Position numbers and translations under genes: made by a program | Virus record (IMG/VR): IMGVR_UViG_3300042486_000458 | Location: 1 to 53,845 of that record | Length of the DNA stretch: 53,845 nucleotides | Direction: 5' to 3' (one strand) | Source of the DNA: a virus | In this document: piece after piece, positions 2,317-40,617 of the stretch | Numbering within the stretch: position 1 is the stretch's first letter | How the letters are laid out: every line of letters starts with the position of its first letter | Notes under the pieces: generated by a model | The model's database searches: none | The model's input: the letters and a program-made list of their open reading frames with translations, nothing else | Told to the model about the DNA's origin: nothing

Positions 2317-2490
2317 ATGAGTGACTTGATTGATAAAAAGTTATTGCAACACAAAACAACAGCATTGCTTGAGTTTCTGGGTCAGCAAGATATGACGAGC
2401 GCAGAATGCCAATTGGTTATGGCAACAGCAACTGATTTTATTCGCACTCAAAGTATAAGAGGTTTACTTTTAGGAGGCCATGATGCTTAA
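2317..2490 (+). CDS. Small hypothetical protein
   Basis: A 57-residue protein preceded by an AAAAAGGA ribosome site. It starts 2 bases after the MazG-like gene and its end overlaps the start of the Sak4-like gene. Predicted helical. No known domain seen. Confidence 0.55.
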   Translation: MSDLIDKKLLQHKTTALLEFLGQQDMTSAECQLVMATATDFIRTQSIRGLLLGGHDA

Positions 2491-3259
2491 CATCGAAAAG
2501 CGAAAACCTAAGCCACCAAGGATTTTAATTTATGGTCCTCAAAAGATTGGTAAATCAACATTTGGAGCGGCTGCACCTAATCCAATATTTTTACCGACAG
2601 AAGATGGGCTTGATAACTTGAGTGCGGATTCTTTCCCGCTTGCGAGGGATTGGGCCACGGTTATGAATAATTTAACCGAGTTATGCACAAAAGATCATAG
2701 CTATCAAACACTTGTTGTTGATAGCGTCGATTGGCTTGAGCGTCTTGTCTGGGATCAGGTTGCTAAAGAAAACGGCAAAAAGCAGATTGAGGATATAGGG
2801 TATGGCAAAGGGTATTTGATGGCTATTGATTTATGGCGCGAATACTTGGAAGCCTTGGACTATCTTCGATCTGAAAAGAATATGCTTATCATTCAGATCG
2901 CACATTCCGAAATTAAGCGTTTTGAAAACCCTGAAACAGATGGTTATGATCGGTACGTTATCAAGCTGCATAAAAATGCTGCTTCAGTCCTAATGGAATA
3001 CGCCGAGATTATTCTTTTTGCTAATTACTATGTTGGCGTAAAGAAAAGCAAGAATGGATTTTCCGAAACATCTAAAGCTGTGGGTTCTGGTGAACGTATT
3101 CTTTACACAGAAGAACGACCAGCATTTATTGCAGGGAATAGGTACGACCTACCAACCGAAATTCCATTTGATAAGAATGGAGAGTATTGGAATGTGATAG
3201 CGCAACACGTTCCGTTTTTTAAAGCGCAATTTATTAACGAGGAGACTACAAATGGCTAA
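2483..3259 (+). CDS. Sak4-like ATPase (AAA_24 family, RecA fold)
   Basis: A 258-residue P-loop ATPase. Walker A is GPQKIGKS at residues 18-25 and Walker B is LVVDSVDWLE at about 77-86. A later LIIQIAHSEIKRF strand and KLHKNAASVLMEYAEIILFA segment are typical of phage Sak4/AAA_24 proteins, which act in single-strand annealing recombination and replication. Two ATGs are adjacent (2480, 2483); 2483 is preferred because AGGAGG at 2472-2477 would be too close to the first. It is followed with an 8-base overlap by the DUF669 gene, the usual partner. Confidence 0.85.
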   Translation: MLNIEKRKPKPPRILIYGPQKIGKSTFGAAAPNPIFLPTEDGLDNLSADSFPLARDWATVMNNLTELCTKDHSYQTLVVDSVDWLERLVWDQVAKENGKKQIEDIGYGKGYLMAIDLWREYLEALDYLRSEKNMLIIQIAHSEIKRFENPETDGYDRYVIKLHKNAASVLMEYAEIILFANYYVGVKKSKNGFSETSKAVGSGERILYTEERPAFIAGNRYDLPTEIPFDKNGEYWNVIAQHVPFFKAQFINEETTNG

Positions 3260-3752
3260 ATTATTTGAACCTTTCAATATCGCAGATGTGCCTGAGAATC
3301 AGTACGAACTGATTGCGCCGGGCAAGTATCAGGCAATGATCGTCGCAAACACTTTGAAGGAAAATAAGGCAAAAGACGGTGCTTACTACGAGCTTGAGGT
3401 TTCTATCCAGACGCCAAGCGGAAGTAAAACACTGAAAGAAATGCTGAATATCCAGAACAAGAACGAAACAGCAGTCAGAATTGCGCAGCAAACACTGCGT
3501 GATATTTGTATTGCTTGTAACAAAACTTCTATTCAAGACCTTGATGAAGTCATGAATATCAGGATGCTTGTTAATGTTGTTGTTGAAGGTGTTGGCAAGA
3601 AATATACCGACTCAACAACAGGTGAGGAAAAGGAAAGTAAGGGGCAAAACCGTATTAAGAAATACGAGCCTTACAATGCAAATGCAGCAACACAGCAGGC
3701 GCAGGCTAGCACGCAGGCGACTGATAACCGCCCGATCTGGCAGAAGCGTTAA
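3252..3752 (+). CDS. DUF669 family protein (probable ssDNA-binding)
   Basis: A 166-residue protein with the DUF669 pattern: N-terminal LFEPFNIADVPE, then GKYQAMIVANTLKENKAKDG, YYELEVSIQTPSG, and a C-terminal low-complexity Gln/Ala/Thr tail after a KGQNRIKKYEP segment. In other phages DUF669 genes sit next to Sak4-type ATPases and RecB/Cas4-type nucleases, and are suspected to bind single-stranded DNA. It overlaps the ATPase gene by 8 bases. The function is by family context, not by a visible active site. Confidence 0.8.
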   Translation: MAKLFEPFNIADVPENQYELIAPGKYQAMIVANTLKENKAKDGAYYELEVSIQTPSGSKTLKEMLNIQNKNETAVRIAQQTLRDICIACNKTSIQDLDEVMNIRMLVNVVVEGVGKKYTDSTTGEEKESKGQNRIKKYEPYNANAATQQAQASTQATDNRPIWQKR

Positions 3753-3766
3753 GTAAAAATCAGCCC

Positions 3767-3796
3767 TAAGCATGGCTTAAAACTGCTTATTTTTTT
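3767..3796 (+). terminator. Possible rho-independent terminator
   Basis: TAAGCA at 3767-3772 pairs with TGCTTA at 3784-3789 and is followed by seven T at 3790-3796. The stem is only 6 bp with an 11-base loop, so termination may be partial. It lies in the 56-base gap after the DUF669 gene. Confidence 0.4.
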
Positions 3797-3808
3797 GAGA
3801 GGATAAAA

Positions 3809-4513
3809 ATGTCAGCACCAACACCACGCGATCCTATTCTGGACGCGATTGATGAAATATTGATTAAAGACAACGAGAATCAGCCCAATAGAGATTATAT
3901 CGGGGCTTCCATTGTTGGTGAACCGTGTTCGCGTAAGGTATGGATTAAGTACAATACGCACCATAAGGAAAAAATGAGCGCAGAATCAGTCCGCCGTATC
4001 AATGATGGCCATAGATGTGAGGCCGTAATGGCATCACTACTCAAGCGCGTGCCAAACGTGGAGCTTATAACGCATGATGAGGCTGGGCAGCAATACGGTT
4101 TTAAGAATGGCGTTATGCGCGGTCATTATGATGGCGTTATAAACGGCATTAGAGGACTTTCCACTTGGGCGATATGGGAACACAAGGCAACAAATGAGAA
4201 GAATTTTAACAAGTTGGTAAAACTTGCCTCGAACCTTGAACATATGGCGTTGCAGCAATGGAATCCTGTTTATTACGCACAGGCCGTTGTCAATATGCAC
4301 CATGAGAAGTTGGATTACCATTATATGACAGTATCAACCGCAGGACTGCGTGATTATACCAGCGTATTGACAGAGGCAAACCCGACATTTGCGGAAGGGC
4401 TGATTACGAAGGCAAATAGGCTGGCGACAATGAAAGAGCCACCACAGAAGATTGGCGGTAAGGATTATTTCGGATGTAAGATGTGCTGCTTTTATGAGGT
4501 ATGCCATGCTTAA
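3809..4513 (+). CDS. Cas4/RecB-like PD-(D/E)XK exonuclease
   Basis: A 234-residue nuclease. Visible residues are C40 (IVGEPCSRKVW), D108 (RGHYDGVI), E124 and K126 (IWEHK), Q158 (YYAQAVV) and a C-terminal cysteine group C223, C226/C227 and C232 (FGCKMCCFYEVCHA). This order matches PD-(D/E)XK enzymes of the Cas4/AddB type that carry a four-cysteine iron-sulphur cluster. It probably resects DNA ends for the neighbouring Sak4/DUF669 annealing system. The ATG follows a GAGAGGA site; the gene end overlaps the helicase start by 8 bases. Confidence 0.85.
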   Translation: MSAPTPRDPILDAIDEILIKDNENQPNRDYIGASIVGEPCSRKVWIKYNTHHKEKMSAESVRRINDGHRCEAVMASLLKRVPNVELITHDEAGQQYGFKNGVMRGHYDGVINGIRGLSTWAIWEHKATNEKNFNKLVKLASNLEHMALQQWNPVYYAQAVVNMHHEKLDYHYMTVSTAGLRDYTSVLTEANPTFAEGLITKANRLATMKEPPQKIGGKDYFGCKMCCFYEVCHA

Positions 4514-7103
4514 CTTGCGTTACTATCAGCGCGATGCAGTCGATTCTGCGTGGCGATACTTACAATCCAACCATGGCAATCCGCTGATTGTGATCCCGAC
4601 CGGCGGAGGTAAATCGGCAGTATTATCGAAAATAATAGAAGAGGCAATGCAATACGATCAGGCGCGTATCATTGTCGCCACGCACGTTAAGGAATTGGTG
4701 CAACAGAATTACGAGGAGTATATAGGCTTATCACCTTTTGCGCCTGCGGGTATTTACAGCGCAGGACTAAATCGGCGTGATCATCATGCGCGTATCTTAT
4801 TCGCTGGCATCCAGTCTATTTATAACAAGGCCGAAAAGCTGCAACGCTGCGATTTGCTACTTATTGATGAGTGCCACACTATAGCTCAGAAAGATGATGG
4901 CAGGTGGCGCACGTTTCTAGGCCATATGCAGGCGATTAATAGAGGTATGCGGATTATTGGCCTGACAGCCACACCATACAGACTTGATAGCGGTATGCTT
5001 ACCACAGGCGAGAATAAAATATTTGATGATATTTGCTATGAATACCCGTTGCTCAGAGCAATTGAAGATGGATACTTATGCCCTATCGTGCCGACCACTA
5101 TGGCAACGCGGTATGATTTATCGAATGTGCGGACACTTGGCGGCGATTACAAACAAGATGAACTTGAAGCGGCTTTTAATATTGATGAAAAAACAATGAG
5201 GGCCATTGATGAAATAGAAGCCTACGGACAAGACCGCCGTAGCTGGCTTATATTCGCCGCTGGTAACAATCACGCTTATGCCATACATGAGGAATTAAAG
5301 AAACGTGGCTATCTTGGTGCAGTTGTAACGAAGGATACCAACAATACAGACCGCGATAGAGCAACAGCAGAGATAAAGAATTATAAGATTAGGTATTTGG
5401 TGAATAACAAGGTATTCACAACTGGTTTTAACGCCAAGAATATTGATCTGATTGCCGACTTTGGCGCGACTAAATCCGCTGGTTTACATGTTCAAAAACT
5501 CGGGCGCGGCACGAGAACAATTGGCGCAAATATTGAACAGAGCATTGCGAACGGAAAATCTAATTGTATATCCAGTGGATCTTTAGTTTTGACTAATTAC
5601 GGCCTAATTCCTATTGAAAAAATTACGAAAAATATGAAAGTTTGGGATGGTATTGATTTTGTAAATCACGATGGTATTATATTTCGCGGTGTTAAAGAAT
5701 GCATAAAATATGCTGGTTTAATAGCAACCCCAGATCATAAGGTATTGACAAAAAATGGATGGAAAAGTTTTAAAGAGTGCGCGGACAATAACATTGGAAT
5801 TAGAGTTGCGGAAAAAAATGGGGAAGCAATACAATTTTCTAGAAATATATTCCGATCAGATTCAAGAAAAAAAAGGATCGAAGAGGTCCTATGTTTTAAC
5901 AAAATGCGTTTTGTGCCAAAAGATATCAATGAAGGAATATACGAGTTTAATGATGTCAAAAGCTGGTTGCAGAAAATGTGGGAGAAAAAGAAACAAAAGC
6001 AAGCCAGTTTTTGGTGTTCCAAAATGGTTATGGGGGAGGTGCAATTCAGCGAAGCAGAGGTGTGTAAACAAAAGAAATCAAAGTTACAAAAATTATGGAG
6101 GAAGGGGGGTGCAATTCAAATTTGGGACTGCGAATCATATGGGGAAATATATAATGGAGAACCTTGGGTTAAACGCAGAATTACAAATAGACAGAATAGA
6201 CAACAATGGCCACTACGAGCCCGGAAATTTAAGGCTAGTAAAACCCAAAATAAATATGAACAATCAAAGGACAAGTTTTGGGACAAAAAATATGCACTTA
6301 TTCAGAAAGGAGTACCCGCAGGTAAGATATGCAGACTCTACAATAATAAGACTGTTAAGAATGGGTCTAACTCCTCAAGACATAGAGCATCGCTTTTTCA
6401 ATCTAAAGTCATGCAAACCGAAAGGGAAGTATGGGACATACTCAATTGCGGACCAAGAAATTCTTTCTGTGTTAATGGATTAATTGTTCATAATTGTGTC
6501 TTGCTCGATTTTGCCCGCAACGTGGATTACCACGGGCCACTTGATAAGATACGCGGTAGGGATAAATCATCAAAGGGCGATGCTGATGCACCAGTCAAGG
6601 TTTGTCCGCAGTGCAATCAGGTTTGCTTTGCGGGATTGCGCACATGCTTTAAATGCGGTTATGAATTTCCATTTGATGAGCAGAATAAAATAAGAACGGA
6701 TGGTGGCGATAATGCCATACTATCCACACAGATTGAACCTGAGTGGCATAAGGTTGCAAGTGTCGCGTATGATTTGCACCAGAAGGAAGGTAAAACGCCA
6801 AGTATGCGGGTATCTTATTTTACCTTTAATGGCATATACCGCGAATGGATATGTTTCGAGCATAGCGGATTTGCGAAGAAAAAAGCGCAAACGTGGCACA
6901 TGAACAGGCTTTTTAGAGAGGAAATACCAACAACGATAGATGCGGCTCTAAAGTTAAAGTATCCGAACCCGACCAAAATACTTGTCCTTCAAGATGGAAA
7001 ATACCCACAGATATTGGATTATGATTTTAAAACTTCGACAAATGAAGAAGAAGTTAAAACTTATAGGGGTATGGATGATGATGAAGATTATATCCCGTTT
7101 TAA
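4506..7103 (+). CDS. DEAD/DECH superfamily 2 helicase with intein
   Basis: An 865-residue precursor. The ATG at 4506 is chosen because GAGGT at 4496-4500 precedes it and the open frame back to 4452 overlaps the nuclease gene. N-terminal RYYQRDAVDSAWR is a Q-motif-like region; Walker A PTGGGKS is at residues 31-37, DECH at 121-124, TATPYR at about 154-159, and motif VI GRGTRTIG in the second RecA domain. The frame is interrupted after GKSN by a 310-residue intein (residues 354-663). The extein resumes as CVLLDFARNVDYHGP, then a zinc ribbon (CPQC...CFKCGYEF) and a C-terminal domain. The spliced protein would be 555 residues, normal for phage helicases of this type. It probably unwinds DNA in replication or recombination with the upstream genes. 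Confidence 0.9.
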   Translation: MLNLRYYQRDAVDSAWRYLQSNHGNPLIVIPTGGGKSAVLSKIIEEAMQYDQARIIVATHVKELVQQNYEEYIGLSPFAPAGIYSAGLNRRDHHARILFAGIQSIYNKAEKLQRCDLLLIDECHTIAQKDDGRWRTFLGHMQAINRGMRIIGLTATPYRLDSGMLTTGENKIFDDICYEYPLLRAIEDGYLCPIVPTTMATRYDLSNVRTLGGDYKQDELEAAFNIDEKTMRAIDEIEAYGQDRRSWLIFAAGNNHAYAIHEELKKRGYLGAVVTKDTNNTDRDRATAEIKNYKIRYLVNNKVFTTGFNAKNIDLIADFGATKSAGLHVQKLGRGTRTIGANIEQSIANGKSNCISSGSLVLTNYGLIPIEKITKNMKVWDGIDFVNHDGIIFRGVKECIKYAGLIATPDHKVLTKNGWKSFKECADNNIGIRVAEKNGEAIQFSRNIFRSDSRKKRIEEVLCFNKMRFVPKDINEGIYEFNDVKSWLQKMWEKKKQKQASFWCSKMVMGEVQFSEAEVCKQKKSKLQKLWRKGGAIQIWDCESYGEIYNGEPWVKRRITNRQNRQQWPLRARKFKASKTQNKYEQSKDKFWDKKYALIQKGVPAGKICRLYNNKTVKNGSNSSRHRASLFQSKVMQTEREVWDILNCGPRNSFCVNGLIVHNCVLLDFARNVDYHGPLDKIRGRDKSSKGDADAPVKVCPQCNQVCFAGLRTCFKCGYEFPFDEQNKIRTDGGDNAILSTQIEPEWHKVASVAYDLHQKEGKTPSMRVSYFTFNGIYREWICFEHSGFAKKKAQTWHMNRLFREEIPTTIDAALKLKYPNPTKILVLQDGKYPQILDYDFKTSTNEEEVKTYRGMDDDEDYIPF
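5565..6494 (+). other. Intein in the helicase gene (310 aa)
   Basis: The insertion begins with Cys in CISSGSLVLTNYGLIPIEKI (N-terminal splicing block A), has TPDHKVLT (block B), and ends with VWDILNCGP and VNGLIVHN, followed by Cys as first C-extein residue. These are all the Hint-domain residues needed for class 1 splicing. The junction SN/CVLLDFARN falls in the conserved helicase stretch that in relatives continues from motif VI into LDFA. Between block B and the C-terminal block, roughly 200 residues in this frame are Lys/Gln/Trp-rich and match no endonuclease. That stretch instead carries an HNH gene in another frame (5818-6483). Confidence 0.9.
5818..6483 (+). CDS. HNH homing endonuclease nested in the intein, different frame
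   Basis: A 221-residue protein lying entirely inside the intein but shifted by one base relative to it. It has a zinc-finger-like N-terminus (CVLC at 30-33 and CRKC at 51-54 after a YVLTKC strand), then RCNSAKQRCVNKRNQSYKNYGGRG, and IDRIDNNGHYEPGNLRLVKP with the D/H/N residues of phage HNH enzymes. The frame opens at 5755; the ATG at 5818 gives the usual N-terminus of these enzymes and has a weak GCGGA upstream. The stop at 6481-6483 is 11 bases before the intein end, so its C-terminus overlaps the intein splicing block. It probably cuts intein-less alleles and drives homing (inference). Expression would need its own translation start or a frameshift. Confidence 0.85.
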   Translation: MGKQYNFLEIYSDQIQEKKGSKRSYVLTKCVLCQKISMKEYTSLMMSKAGCRKCGRKRNKSKPVFGVPKWLWGRCNSAKQRCVNKRNQSYKNYGGRGVQFKFGTANHMGKYIMENLGLNAELQIDRIDNNGHYEPGNLRLVKPKINMNNQRTSFGTKNMHLFRKEYPQVRYADSTIIRLLRMGLTPQDIEHRFFNLKSCKPKGKYGTYSIADQEILSVLMD

Positions 7104-7123
7104 AAAATATTTTAAAAAAGATG

Positions 7124-7152
7124 TTGACTGTCCCGTAATAGAGATATATAAA
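7124..7152 (+). promoter_or_regulatory. Sigma70-type promoter
   Basis: TTGACT is at 7124-7129 and TATAAA at 7147-7152 with a 17-base spacer. It lies in the 78-base gap between the helicase and the small-gene operon, on the coding strand of the latter. Confidence 0.65.
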
Positions 7153-7181
7153 AGTTATATAACACAAGGAAAGGATATTTT

Positions 7182-7382
7182 ATGAGAACTTTATTAATGA
7201 TTGCAGGATTGTTGTCAATCGGTCTTGCGATATTTTTAGCGTGGGTTACGCATTGTGCTTGGTGGATTAAGTTACTGATGAATGAGCAGATGGATACCGC
7301 TGGTGAAGGTATTTTGGCCGTATTGGGCACTACCTTCCCCCCAATTGGTGTAATCCATGGGTTTATTTTATGGTTCTCGTAA
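7182..7382 (+). CDS. Small membrane protein
   Basis: A 66-residue protein with two hydrophobic segments: residues 1-21 (LLMIAGLLSIGLAIFLAW) and about 45-65 (GILAVLGTTFPPIGVIHGF). It follows an AAGGAAAGGA ribosome site and is the first gene after the promoter at 7124. Probably an inner-membrane protein of unknown role, possibly host-modifying or exclusion. Confidence 0.65.
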   Translation: MRTLLMIAGLLSIGLAIFLAWVTHCAWWIKLLMNEQMDTAGEGILAVLGTTFPPIGVIHGFILWFS

Positions 7383-11638: not shown

Positions 11639-12610
11639 ATGAATAATATTCTATGTATATATCACGGTAATTGTGCGGATGGTTTCAGCGCGGCATGGGC
11701 AATTTGGAAACGGTTTCCAGATGCTCAATTTCATGCAGGTGTTTATGGGCAAGAGCCGCCAGATGTTAAGGATAAGCACGTTGTTTTAGTAGACTTTTGC
11801 TATAAACCCGATGTTCTCGACAAGATGACGGAAACGGCTAAATCTATTCTGATATTGGACCACCATAAATCAGCAGTCGAATCCGTTCTTGCGGAGAAGA
11901 TGATTGGTATTTGTCCACCTGTTGATATGTTTAATAAATACACTGGCCCGATTACATGGGAACGTCACTTGCAAAATGTCTATCAAGATATTGGTGAGGG
12001 TATTTATAAAGCCGTGGTTTATACGCTTTTCGATATGGATCGTTCTGGCGCAATGATTGCTTGGCAATTCTTTCATCCAGAAAAAGATATACCGCAGCTT
12101 ATTAAGCACGTTGAGGATCGTGATCTATGGCGTTTCAAGTTGGGATACACGAAGGAAATACAAGCGGCTGTCTTTAGTTATCCTTACGATTTTGAGACAT
12201 GGGATTGGCTTATGTCTTATGCTGACGATGTCGATGGACATAAAAGCCTTGTGCATCAAGGTAGAGCCATAACGAGAAAGCATGAAAAAGATATTGCAGA
12301 GCTTTTGAGCGTCACAAAAAGACAAATGGTAATTGGTGAGCATGTTGTTCTTGTTGCTAACCTCCCTTACACAATGGCGAGCGATGCTTGCCATGAATTG
12401 TGTAAAATGCAAGTCCATGATTGTTTTGGTGTGTTAATTGGCGATACGCCATTCGCAGCGTCATATTATGATACTAATGACGGCAGGGTATTCTCATTGC
12501 GTTCAATTGGTGATTTTGATGTATCGGAAATAGCCAAAAAATACGGCGGAGGAGGACACAAAAATGCTGCTGGTTTCAAAATGCCAATTGGGTGGGAAGG
12601 CGATGCTTAA
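11639..12610 (+). CDS. DHH-family phosphoesterase
   Basis: A 323-residue protein of the DHH/DHHA1 superfamily (nanoRNase, pAp phosphatase and related enzymes). Motifs: HGNCADG with H9 and D14, DFCYK with D52, LDHHKSA with D74-H75-H76, a central D in DMDRSGA, and at the C-terminus the DHHA1 glycine/histidine loop GGGGHKNAAGF at about 303-313. It probably hydrolyses short oligonucleotides or pAp with Mn2+, which would recycle nucleotides. It ends the large run of small genes; GGAAAG precedes the ATG. Confidence 0.85.
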   Translation: MNNILCIYHGNCADGFSAAWAIWKRFPDAQFHAGVYGQEPPDVKDKHVVLVDFCYKPDVLDKMTETAKSILILDHHKSAVESVLAEKMIGICPPVDMFNKYTGPITWERHLQNVYQDIGEGIYKAVVYTLFDMDRSGAMIAWQFFHPEKDIPQLIKHVEDRDLWRFKLGYTKEIQAAVFSYPYDFETWDWLMSYADDVDGHKSLVHQGRAITRKHEKDIAELLSVTKRQMVIGEHVVLVANLPYTMASDACHELCKMQVHDCFGVLIGDTPFAASYYDTNDGRVFSLRSIGDFDVSEIAKKYGGGGHKNAAGFKMPIGWEGDA

Positions 12611-38085: not shown

Positions 38086-40617
38086 TTATATGTGTCTCTT
38101 GCGTTCCGAGTGCCCGACATTCATAGATGGCCTTCCACCGCTGCCGTATAGCGTCTTATTCGTCACTTCCTTCTGCCGTTTCAGGTATGTCCAGTATGCG
38201 ATACGCAGCGCGTCAGCTCTGCCCGGCGATCTGCCGATTTCCTTCTTTATCTTTTCCTTTGGCGTAATACTGATACACTGCTTGCCACCGATGCGCTCAA
38301 CTTCAAATGTATAAGCACAAAGCTCTGTCATAAGCTCCTGATCTTCTGGAAGTGCCATGGTTGGATTGTATTCAGGATCGAGAGCTTCGCGAAGCCGCCA
38401 CAGGCTTTCAGCTGTTACCTTATCAAAGTGCAGTACCTTATTCTGGTCCATTGCGGATGATGTTTTTGAGCCGACATAGTGCAGCACCTTTATGCCACTG
38501 TCCGACAATATACGCTTTGGATCGCCGCCATATCCGCCGCCCATATCCATACCAACCCATGCGCCGTTACGAAGATGTTTAACAACAAGGGCGGCGACAT
38601 CAGAGCCATCCACAATATCCTTCCCACCTTTTGCAATAAGCGGATCGACAAACAGGTCATCACGTATTGGCGCGAGAACGGTATCATCGCCACCAAGTGA
38701 CGGGTCACACCCCATGGAGTTCATAGGCTTGCGCTGCTCATTCTTCCGCTCATTCCATCTCGCGTTTGCAGCGCGTATCCATGATGTCGGAATAACCTGA
38801 TTTTCCTTATCGGTTCGTGATAACATGAAATTACCATCGCGCATTGCGGAACGTAGCGGTTCTGGTAGCGCGTCAAGCGTGGATTTGTAATCCGTATTTA
38901 TAAGGTATGGGTTATCGGACAGTTTGCCGGGGATGAATGTCCGTGATTTCGGTTTAGTCGGCGTTTTCTCGCCTGAAAACAATATCGGCTCAGGGCCATC
39001 AACCCACATATCCTTACCATCTGGATCAGTCACAACCCATCGAAGCTCGCCATGCTTTGCGGGTTTGTGATATGTCGGATCAAGCCATGGCCTCCAATAA
39101 CCGATAATCCAGTCACCCGCAGATGAGGTTGGCGGGTTTGATGCGCCGAGAACACGGGTGCGCTGGTTTTTCTTTACCGATCTGACCCATGTCTGCAAGA
39201 ACCTGAAATCATGCTCCTTAAAGTTCGCCAATTCGTCATACGCCAAAAGGTCGTGAGGCTGACCTTGCCAAGTGGTCGAGTTGTCACCAATAGCCCCAAA
39301 TTCAATTGTGCGCTTATCCTTTGTCCGCAGCCTTGGCCTCGTACCACCTGTAAAACCCTCCCGCGTACCATTAAGGCGGATGGCATCTTCGGTGAGTGCG
39401 AAAAGATCAGTATAAGACGGTCTTAAAATAAGCGACTTTTCATGCTCGCTCAGTGCCAAGCCGAGGATAAGACCAGACTTGCCACTATTGCCTGTAATAA
39501 ATATCTTTCCATCCCGCCTTGCCAGCCAGAAGCCAGTCGTTGTTGTAAAGCAGTACATACGCTCGGCTGGTATTCTTGTGATATTAGTCACATCACAGCG
39601 TATTGATACCGACGATGCCACGCTACCAGCTTTTGATATATGAACGCGGTATATGGTTTTATGATTTGCACTGTGAGGAGGGACTACCGATATACTCGCG
39701 AACCTTCCGCAGGCGTGGGCGGCGAATTGAATAAAGTCGGCATCGCATTTATTTGTCGTGTTATAACATATATCACCACCAGTTGCGCCTGAGTAAGCAC
39801 CATCCCAATATGATACCTCATCTAGCACCACTTGAAGATGACGAGCGGGTAGAGTGTACCAATACGGCTCGTCATATTTCTTGGATAGCGTCGGCGACTC
39901 AAACCCATATCTAACCTCTGTTGGCCTATTTGGATTATTATATGTATGATATGCTATATTTAATTCACTCAGGAAACCAAGGAGTCTATCCTTCTTGCGT
40001 TGCTTGCGTAGCGATATGCGGCAATACGCACCACCATCTTTTCTGTGTGTCAAATTGCCATCTGCTTTAATTGCTACAGCAAGGCGCAGGAATAACTCAT
40101 CACGCGGCGATATGTCATCATCCCATACATTAAAGGATGTAGGGACTTTATTCTTTGATGGTTTACGCTCCACCTGCGCGGCGGTTTTAACAACAAGTTT
40201 ACCGTTGTATTGGTACAACGGCATTTTGTGGCATTCGGATAGTGCCATGGAGATACGGCTGGATTTAAACTCGATAAGCTCTTTGCAAGGCGCGTCTATG
40301 TATGCCAGTGGTGTTTCAAAGTGGAGAAATGGTTGGTGTTTGTCTTGCAAATAAAGAACGGCAATTGATTGTGGATTATTGACATCATAGCTATCAATGC
40401 GCTGCCATCCTGCGCTTGTCAGGTATTCAGTATCTCCAGATGTGCAACCAGCCGCGCCGCCATATAGCAACACATCAGCCTCGGAGAAGTAGGCATCCGT
40501 TTGTGGCCCCGGATTTGGAACAAATTTAATACCCGCCATTAGCTGCTCTGTTTCAGCAACCAGCTTGTCGTATTCCTCAGGTGATAGGTTTGCGATTATA
40601 TCTTCGTAGTTGGTCAT
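38086..40617 (-). CDS. terL: Large terminase with intein
   Basis: An 843-residue precursor; without the 320-residue intein, 523 residues, normal for TerL. The ATPase Walker A GGAAG/SGKS is split by the intein after residue 57. Downstream: DLLAYDELANF (Walker B) and GASNPP (coupling motif). The nuclease domain shows MGCDPSLGGDD and VGMDMGGGYGGDP, with acidic residues that bind metal. It packages DNA at the portal and cuts concatemers. Followed by structural genes. Confidence 0.9.
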   Translation of the reverse strand: MTNYEDIIANLSPEEYDKLVAETEQLMAGIKFVPNPGPQTDAYFSEADVLLYGGAAGCTSGDTEYLTSAGWQRIDSYDVNNPQSIAVLYLQDKHQPFLHFETPLAYIDAPCKELIEFKSSRISMALSECHKMPLYQYNGKLVVKTAAQVERKPSKNKVPTSFNVWDDDISPRDELFLRLAVAIKADGNLTHRKDGGAYCRISLRKQRKKDRLLGFLSELNIAYHTYNNPNRPTEVRYGFESPTLSKKYDEPYWYTLPARHLQVVLDEVSYWDGAYSGATGGDICYNTTNKCDADFIQFAAHACGRFASISVVPPHSANHKTIYRVHISKAGSVASSVSIRCDVTNITRIPAERMYCFTTTTGFWLARRDGKIFITGNSGKSGLILGLALSEHEKSLILRPSYTDLFALTEDAIRLNGTREGFTGGTRPRLRTKDKRTIEFGAIGDNSTTWQGQPHDLLAYDELANFKEHDFRFLQTWVRSVKKNQRTRVLGASNPPTSSAGDWIIGYWRPWLDPTYHKPAKHGELRWVVTDPDGKDMWVDGPEPILFSGEKTPTKPKSRTFIPGKLSDNPYLINTDYKSTLDALPEPLRSAMRDGNFMLSRTDKENQVIPTSWIRAANARWNERKNEQRKPMNSMGCDPSLGGDDTVLAPIRDDLFVDPLIAKGGKDIVDGSDVAALVVKHLRNGAWVGMDMGGGYGGDPKRILSDSGIKVLHYVGSKTSSAMDQNKVLHFDKVTAESLWRLREALDPEYNPTMALPEDQELMTELCAYTFEVERIGGKQCISITPKEKIKKEIGRSPGRADALRIAYWTYLKRQKEVTNKTLYGSGGRPSMNVGHSERKRHI
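39487..40446 (-). other. Intein in the large terminase, LAGLIDADG type (320 aa)
   Basis: Starts with Cys58 (CTSGDTEYLTSAGWQRID, block A), block B is SECHKMPL, then a LAGLIDADG-like motif LRLAVAIKADGNL at about 178-190 and a second helix DFIQFAAHACGR. It ends YCFTTTTGFWLARRDGKIFITGN with Ser as first C-extein residue. Splicing would restore the GSGKS Walker A loop. This insertion point is a known hot spot in phage terminases. Confidence 0.92.

Follow-up and report, generated by a model that had tools for sequence, protein, structure and literature searches.

Inteins usually carry their nuclease in frame. Those with a homing endonuclease of the LAGLIDADG or HNH type have class-1 splicing blocks, hold the nuclease between blocks B and F as part of the intein polypeptide, and occupy conserved active-site insertion points. 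A different arrangement, termed 'fractured genes', was reportedly described by Dassa et al. in 2009 and consists of split inteins whose halves flank a homing-endonuclease gene. Phages also have free-standing HNH endonucleases (phrog_374, phrog_3377), whose DNA is not shared with another coding frame. Outside inteins, Arsenault, Gosselin and Gogarten (2025, PMC11855218) described DNA methylases of mycobacteriophages that contain an out-of-frame HNH insert, the ShiLan domain or the Pacc40 insertion; they found no self-splicing domain in the ShiLan insert, regarded it as neither intein nor intron, and thought that it stays in the methylase. Another methylase with an out-of-frame HNH insert has been reported (PMC12613952).

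The locus considered here lies in a 53,845-nt stretch of viral DNA (IMG/VR record IMGVR_UViG_3300042486_000458, positions 1 to 53,845), referred to as the window. A 310-codon intein interrupts a helicase gene directly after motif VI, and an HNH gene is nested in the intein in the +1 frame (Table 1). Like the inteins that contain endonucleases, this one has class-1 blocks, a nuclease between blocks B and F and a conserved active-site insertion point, but its nuclease has a start and a stop of its own and is read in a different frame. The separate endonuclease gene between the N- and C-intein halves is shared with split inteins, in which, however, the two halves are separate ORFs, the first ending and the second starting anew, whereas the intein frame in the window is continuous. 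As in ShiLan, the insert has no stop in the host frame and encodes a complete zinc-finger HNH in another, and the type to which the window belongs has the same patchy, homing-like spread and presumed HNH-frame product. Unlike ShiLan, the insert is a full intein with splicing blocks and a Hint fold, and the type occupies many genes and sites, has over a hundred relatives and comes with codon-level evidence for selection. We consider it highly probable that a mobile class-1 intein here hosts an independent gene for its homing endonuclease, placed out of frame in a stop-free loop and initiated internally.

Table 1. Features of the helicase intein, its nested HNH gene and the second intein in the window
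Feature	Position	Strand	Remarks
N-extein, RadD-like SF2 helicase	4506-5564	+	Walker A to just past motif VI, end ...LGRGTRTIGANIEQSIANGKSN
Intein	5565-6494	+	310 codons, stop-free; Cys1 ... His-Asn, then Cys+1; Hint fold by AlphaFold/Foldseek
N-terminal splicing half, blocks A and B	5565-5819	+	intein residues 1-85; TPDH at 5727-5738; pLDDT >=95 to residue 80
Intein-frame middle	5820-6404	+	stop-free filler, predicted disordered (pLDDT about 40-60); identity to relatives and substitution pattern as given in the text
C-terminal splicing half, blocks F and G	6405-6494	+	VWDILNCGPRNSFCVNGLIVHN; pLDDT 94-96; HNH tail overlaps up to 6483
C-extein of helicase	6495-7103	+	begins CVLLDFARN...
HNH homing-endonuclease gene (putative)	5818-6483	+	intein frame +1; 221 aa; earlier start possible at ATG 5755
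Zinc ribbon CxxC...CxxC, HNH N-terminus	5905-5979	+	cysteines 30, 33, 51, 54
HNH catalytic region	6094-6228	+	YGGRG ... DRIDNNGHYEPGN; invariant residues in 65 sequences
HNH stop codon TAA	6481-6483	+	within C-terminal splicing block
Second intein, terminase large subunit at Walker A	39487-40446	-	320 aa; inside ORF 38086-40617; GGAAG/CTSGD...FITGN/SGKS

In profile searches the N-extein matched ResIII (E=2.8e-23) and NF053632 RadD (E=6e-79). The mechanical ORF begins at TTG 4452, ATG 4506 being our choice of the likely start, and runs from 4452 to 7103 without any stop, so that the intein is in one continuous frame with both exteins. Intein-less homologues of the helicase are common in phages (2,560 records match at least 80% of the joined exteins) and align across the insertion site, showing that empty sites exist. 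The splicing blocks are complete, as the original prediction from the bare sequence had it: the intein opens with CISSGSLVLT, closes with VNGLIVHN and is followed by Cys, and the class-1 residues C1, T55-P-D-H58, H309-N310 and Cys+1 are all present. The Pfam Intein_splicing match (E=0.001) is under its curated cut-off. An AlphaFold model of the intein frame, run with 59 relatives, reached a pLDDT of about 94-97 over residues 1-80 and 281-310 and mostly about 38-60 in the middle, and Foldseek matched it to the DnaB and RecA mini-inteins with a probability of 1.00, identifying a Hint fold.

The same phage has a second intein, in its terminase gene, where the middle is in frame and an AVAIKADGNL stretch resembles LAGLIDADG, an ordinary arrangement. 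Positions 2480-4513 and 11639-12610 of the window hold a Sak4-like annealing protein, a Cas4-like exonuclease adjoining the helicase, and a DHH phosphoesterase.

The HNH ORF is open from 5749. A full HNH enzyme had been predicted one base out of the intein frame, at 5818-6483, with a zinc finger, YGGRG and IDRIDNNG motifs and a tail running into the C-terminal splicing block. The motifs agree with that prediction (cysteines at 5905, 5914, 5968 and 5977, YGGRG at 6094, DRIDNNGHYEPGN at 6190), and the stop codon indeed lies inside the block. Among 65 relatives the four cysteines are conserved at 90% or more and residues Y93, G94, R96, G97, D125, R126, Y133 and N137 are invariant; the window keeps all of these residues in an intact ORF. 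The zinc ribbon and YGGRG...DRIDNNG core are also those of the free-standing phage enzymes, and in PHROGs the protein falls in the HNH endonuclease families phrog_374 (E=1e-21) and phrog_3377 (E=1.2e-18). Similarity to the Streptococcus phage loci described below is far past chance (E=7e-32), and an AlphaFold model built from the window sequence and 65 relatives has a mean pLDDT of 90.7. Fold and sequence searches of the PDB gave no significant match and a Pfam scan no HNH match, so the assignment rests on PHROGs and the conserved motifs. The protein is probably a homing endonuclease that would cut the empty allele site-specifically.

Searches with tblastn using either frame matched the same DNA, in DNA polymerase I genes of Streptococcus and Gardnerella phages, with the same +1 relation. 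The original prediction had proposed looking for relatives with an HNH ORF in another frame, and scans of viral and genome contigs followed by an HMM frame map brought up two sets: inteins with the HNH in +1 (117 distinct, 95 non-redundant) and inteins with the HNH in +2 (33 distinct, 27 non-redundant), the latter including those of Salmonella Jersey-like phage polymerases and Pseudomonas phage MR14. The insertion sites include several in DNA polymerase and others in SF2 helicases and other phage genes, and the hosts named in the records include Bacillota, Gardnerella, Proteobacteria, Synergistales, Spirochaetaceae and Lentisphaeria. The layout is thus far more widespread than one window suggested. 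Over all loci, counted redundantly, rows with an open intein and an HNH divide into 148/188 in +1, 40/188 in +2 and 0/188 in frame 0. The only apparent in-frame cases, L168 and L230, are both frameshifted and contain stops. In L168 (3001-3926, Eubacterium plexicaudatum) the N block contains a 1-nt frameshift by which N-intein and HNH frame would be fused, and this would be a decayed copy or a sequencing error. Members of the +2 class among polymerase inteins are L004, L005, L006, L063, L083, L171-L183 and others. One locus, L147, has two intein-like elements: the first is a 363-nt mini-intein that lacks an HNH, and the second, a short way downstream, has an HNH in +1.

The next question is how a protein in the second frame would be made. 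The window has only two candidate starts, ATG 5755 and ATG 5818, and its sequence fits either. ATG 5818, the second conserved ATG, is homologous to the M(V)GxQYG start of relatives, which is the natural HNH N-terminus. Most polymerase-type +1 loci have an HNH-frame ATG at intein nt 146 that follows a Shine-Dalgarno sequence formed by block-B codons (e.g., AAGGAGGTaatcgagtATG), and the mean best length of the Shine-Dalgarno match upstream of HNH-frame starts is 5.69, versus 1.98 after synonymous shuffling. In the window the corresponding site is weak (TAAGG, 12 nt 5' of ATG 5755), with no clear Shine-Dalgarno-like site upstream of ATG 5818, and most +2 loci do not have one before the HNH frame. 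Some HNH-less mini-inteins keep the Shine-Dalgarno-like block-B sequence, so the signal is supporting and neither decisive nor proof of initiation. An internal promoter belonging to the HNH was considered and rejected, as promoter-like sites (4) were not above the number in shuffles (3.5). The idea that the nuclease is a separate polypeptide is supported by selection on the HNH frame, by its own stop, and by the conserved start with a Shine-Dalgarno sequence in many +1 relatives; internal initiation is the best inference for how it would be expressed.

An alternative is that +1 ribosomal frameshifting or slippage on an A-run produces the HNH as a fusion of helicase, N-intein and HNH. The lack of a strong Shine-Dalgarno sequence in the window, the A-runs near 5812-5818 and 5868, and an HNH frame that is open from intein nt 3 in some +2 relatives would all suit such a mechanism. 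Yet no slippery site is conserved (a -1 heptamer occurs in 2/27 +2 representatives), a single mechanism would need to serve the +1 and +2 types alike, and most of the listed +1 loci have an HNH frame that is not open upstream of nt 140, and an ATG at nt 146 with its Shine-Dalgarno sequence. We therefore regard frameshifting as unlikely.

Constraint on the two frames was addressed through stop codons and substitutions. The intein frame had been predicted to stay free of stops for some 200 codons under the HNH gene; the figure is better given as about 190-200 codons, in which no stop was seen. When the HNH amino acids were fixed and synonymous codons shuffled, 15.0 stops were expected over 196 codons against 0 observed (P<1/300), whereas the third frame had 22 stops for 20.2 expected under the same shuffling. 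Relatives likewise have 0 stops in the intein frame where 9.1 (first 67 +1), 7.65 (all 95 +1) and 2.67 (27 +2) were expected, in rows that had been chosen as open, and their third frame agrees with the shuffled expectation. Where an HNH-bearing row has N and C blocks in one frame together with stops, it is of the split-intein type only. The shuffling disposes of a chance open frame under the HNH in the window and in the relatives, and shows that the intein frame has been selected to stay open.

Substitutions were counted in 24 independent +1 pairs of 60-75% identity. In the N block they number 331/196/787 at intein positions 1/2/3, with 787 of 1314 at the third position. In the HNH core the counts are 2399/1195/875, so that HNH third positions take 2399 of 4469, and +2 loci have 175/574/247, HNH third positions again taking the largest share (574/996). 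At the amino-acid level the +1 core is 70% identical when read in the HNH frame, against 38% for the intein frame and 37% for the third frame, which is unused; in the overlap with the C block both frames are conserved, at 76% and 73%. These patterns show purifying selection that acts on the splicing blocks when the intein frame is read and on the HNH when the other frame is read. Judged by substitution positions, both frames are constrained, the middle in the HNH frame only. The HNH is accordingly a maintained protein, and the intein-frame middle is filler. Identity of that middle to relatives is 15-25%, for an expected 15-20%, and it has no amino-acid conservation past what the HNH frame imposes. 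A functional protein there was ruled out, its identity equalling that of the unused third frame and its model being disordered. The same substitutions bear on whether the HNH is a decayed passenger, no longer functional, and the overlap a relic. The many HNH-less mini-inteins do attest to frequent loss, but with selection on the HNH frame in the relative pairs, and with the invariant residues, zinc cysteines and ORF intact in the window, we find this very improbable.

Because inteins usually carry their nuclease in frame, a pair of sequencing or assembly frameshifts in an ordinary HNH intein had to be weighed, and in-frame relatives or paired indels had been named beforehand as what would overturn the prediction; none of the 188 open rows is in frame, identical frame relations recur in independent phages and prophages, isolates among them, and many inteins are exactly 927 nt long, so this reading is refuted by the relatives and we give it practically no weight. 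Equally negligible is a self-splicing RNA intron with an ORF, since, although group I introns often house HNH genes, all splicing blocks are present in a continuous frame with a confident Hint fold, and Rfam gave no match in 4400-7200 even at E<=1.

Under the preferred reading, a nested gene initiated within the intein, the helicase-intein precursor would be translated end to end, and the intein's N- and C-terminal parts, some 85 and 30 residues long, would fold as a Hint domain and splice out. The approximately 195 residues between the splicing halves would be a tolerated disordered loop that needs only to be free of stops. The HNH would be translated from the same mRNA in +1, most likely by internal initiation at ATG 5818 or 5755, up to its own stop in the C-terminal block, and may, in a co-infection, cut the other phage's helicase allele at the insertion site if that allele has no intein, driving copying of the intein.

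Relatives of other forms bear on how such elements evolve. Natural mini-inteins without an HNH, about 110-140 aa long, recur on the splicing-domain tree, where the presence of the HNH changes 12 times, with at least 3 changes forced; the +1 and +2 types are about 3 changes apart on this tree and few on the HNH tree. A related clade has split inteins, with an N-intein ORF of about 94-111 codons, then the HNH ORF, then a C-intein with a new ATG or GTG start, which the HNH stop overlaps at several loci. A related HNH lies between the halves at L057, L060, L064, L065, L066, L068, L070, L073, L080 and L082, several of them with polymerase-like C-exteins, and in L057, L060, L068 and others N- and C-intein lie on separate ORFs. 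Mini-inteins without an HNH and split inteins with an HNH between the halves complete the series. Possibly, when a free-standing HNH gene that brings its own start and stop lands in an intein, only an out-of-frame position would let it persist, since its stop, if read in frame, would truncate the host protein. We lean slightly towards the broader proposal that out-of-frame nesting is a recurrent, selected route by which complete free-standing HNH genes enter inteins, with initiation from a Shine-Dalgarno sequence in block-B codons, and that a frameshift or stop then yields split inteins.

The original prediction held that the architecture may be undescribed. This stands for inteins in the literature searched, but out-of-frame HNH inserts as such have been known since 2025 (PMC11855218). 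Literature searches for an intein whose endonuclease overlaps it or is out of frame, with limited coverage of subscription journals, returned only the methylases of PMC11855218 and PMC12613952. The design is widespread, and for inteins it is apparently undescribed. In the annotation of the phage regions L001-L008 the HNH is absent as a separate gene inside the intein, and many polymerase and helicase records hide an unannotated nuclease of this kind.

On this reading the endonuclease of an intein can be a separate gene on the same DNA that would be expressed separately, and nuclease dose and fate would then be uncoupled from splicing. The elements, about 120 non-redundant inteins, also form a large collection of conserved genes that overlap on one strand, and with natural deletion (mini) and split versions at hand the origin of split inteins and the constraint on overlapping frames become testable. 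If out-of-frame nesting is indeed recurrent, these inteins would represent a general unannotated class of phage mobile element and of overlapping genes.
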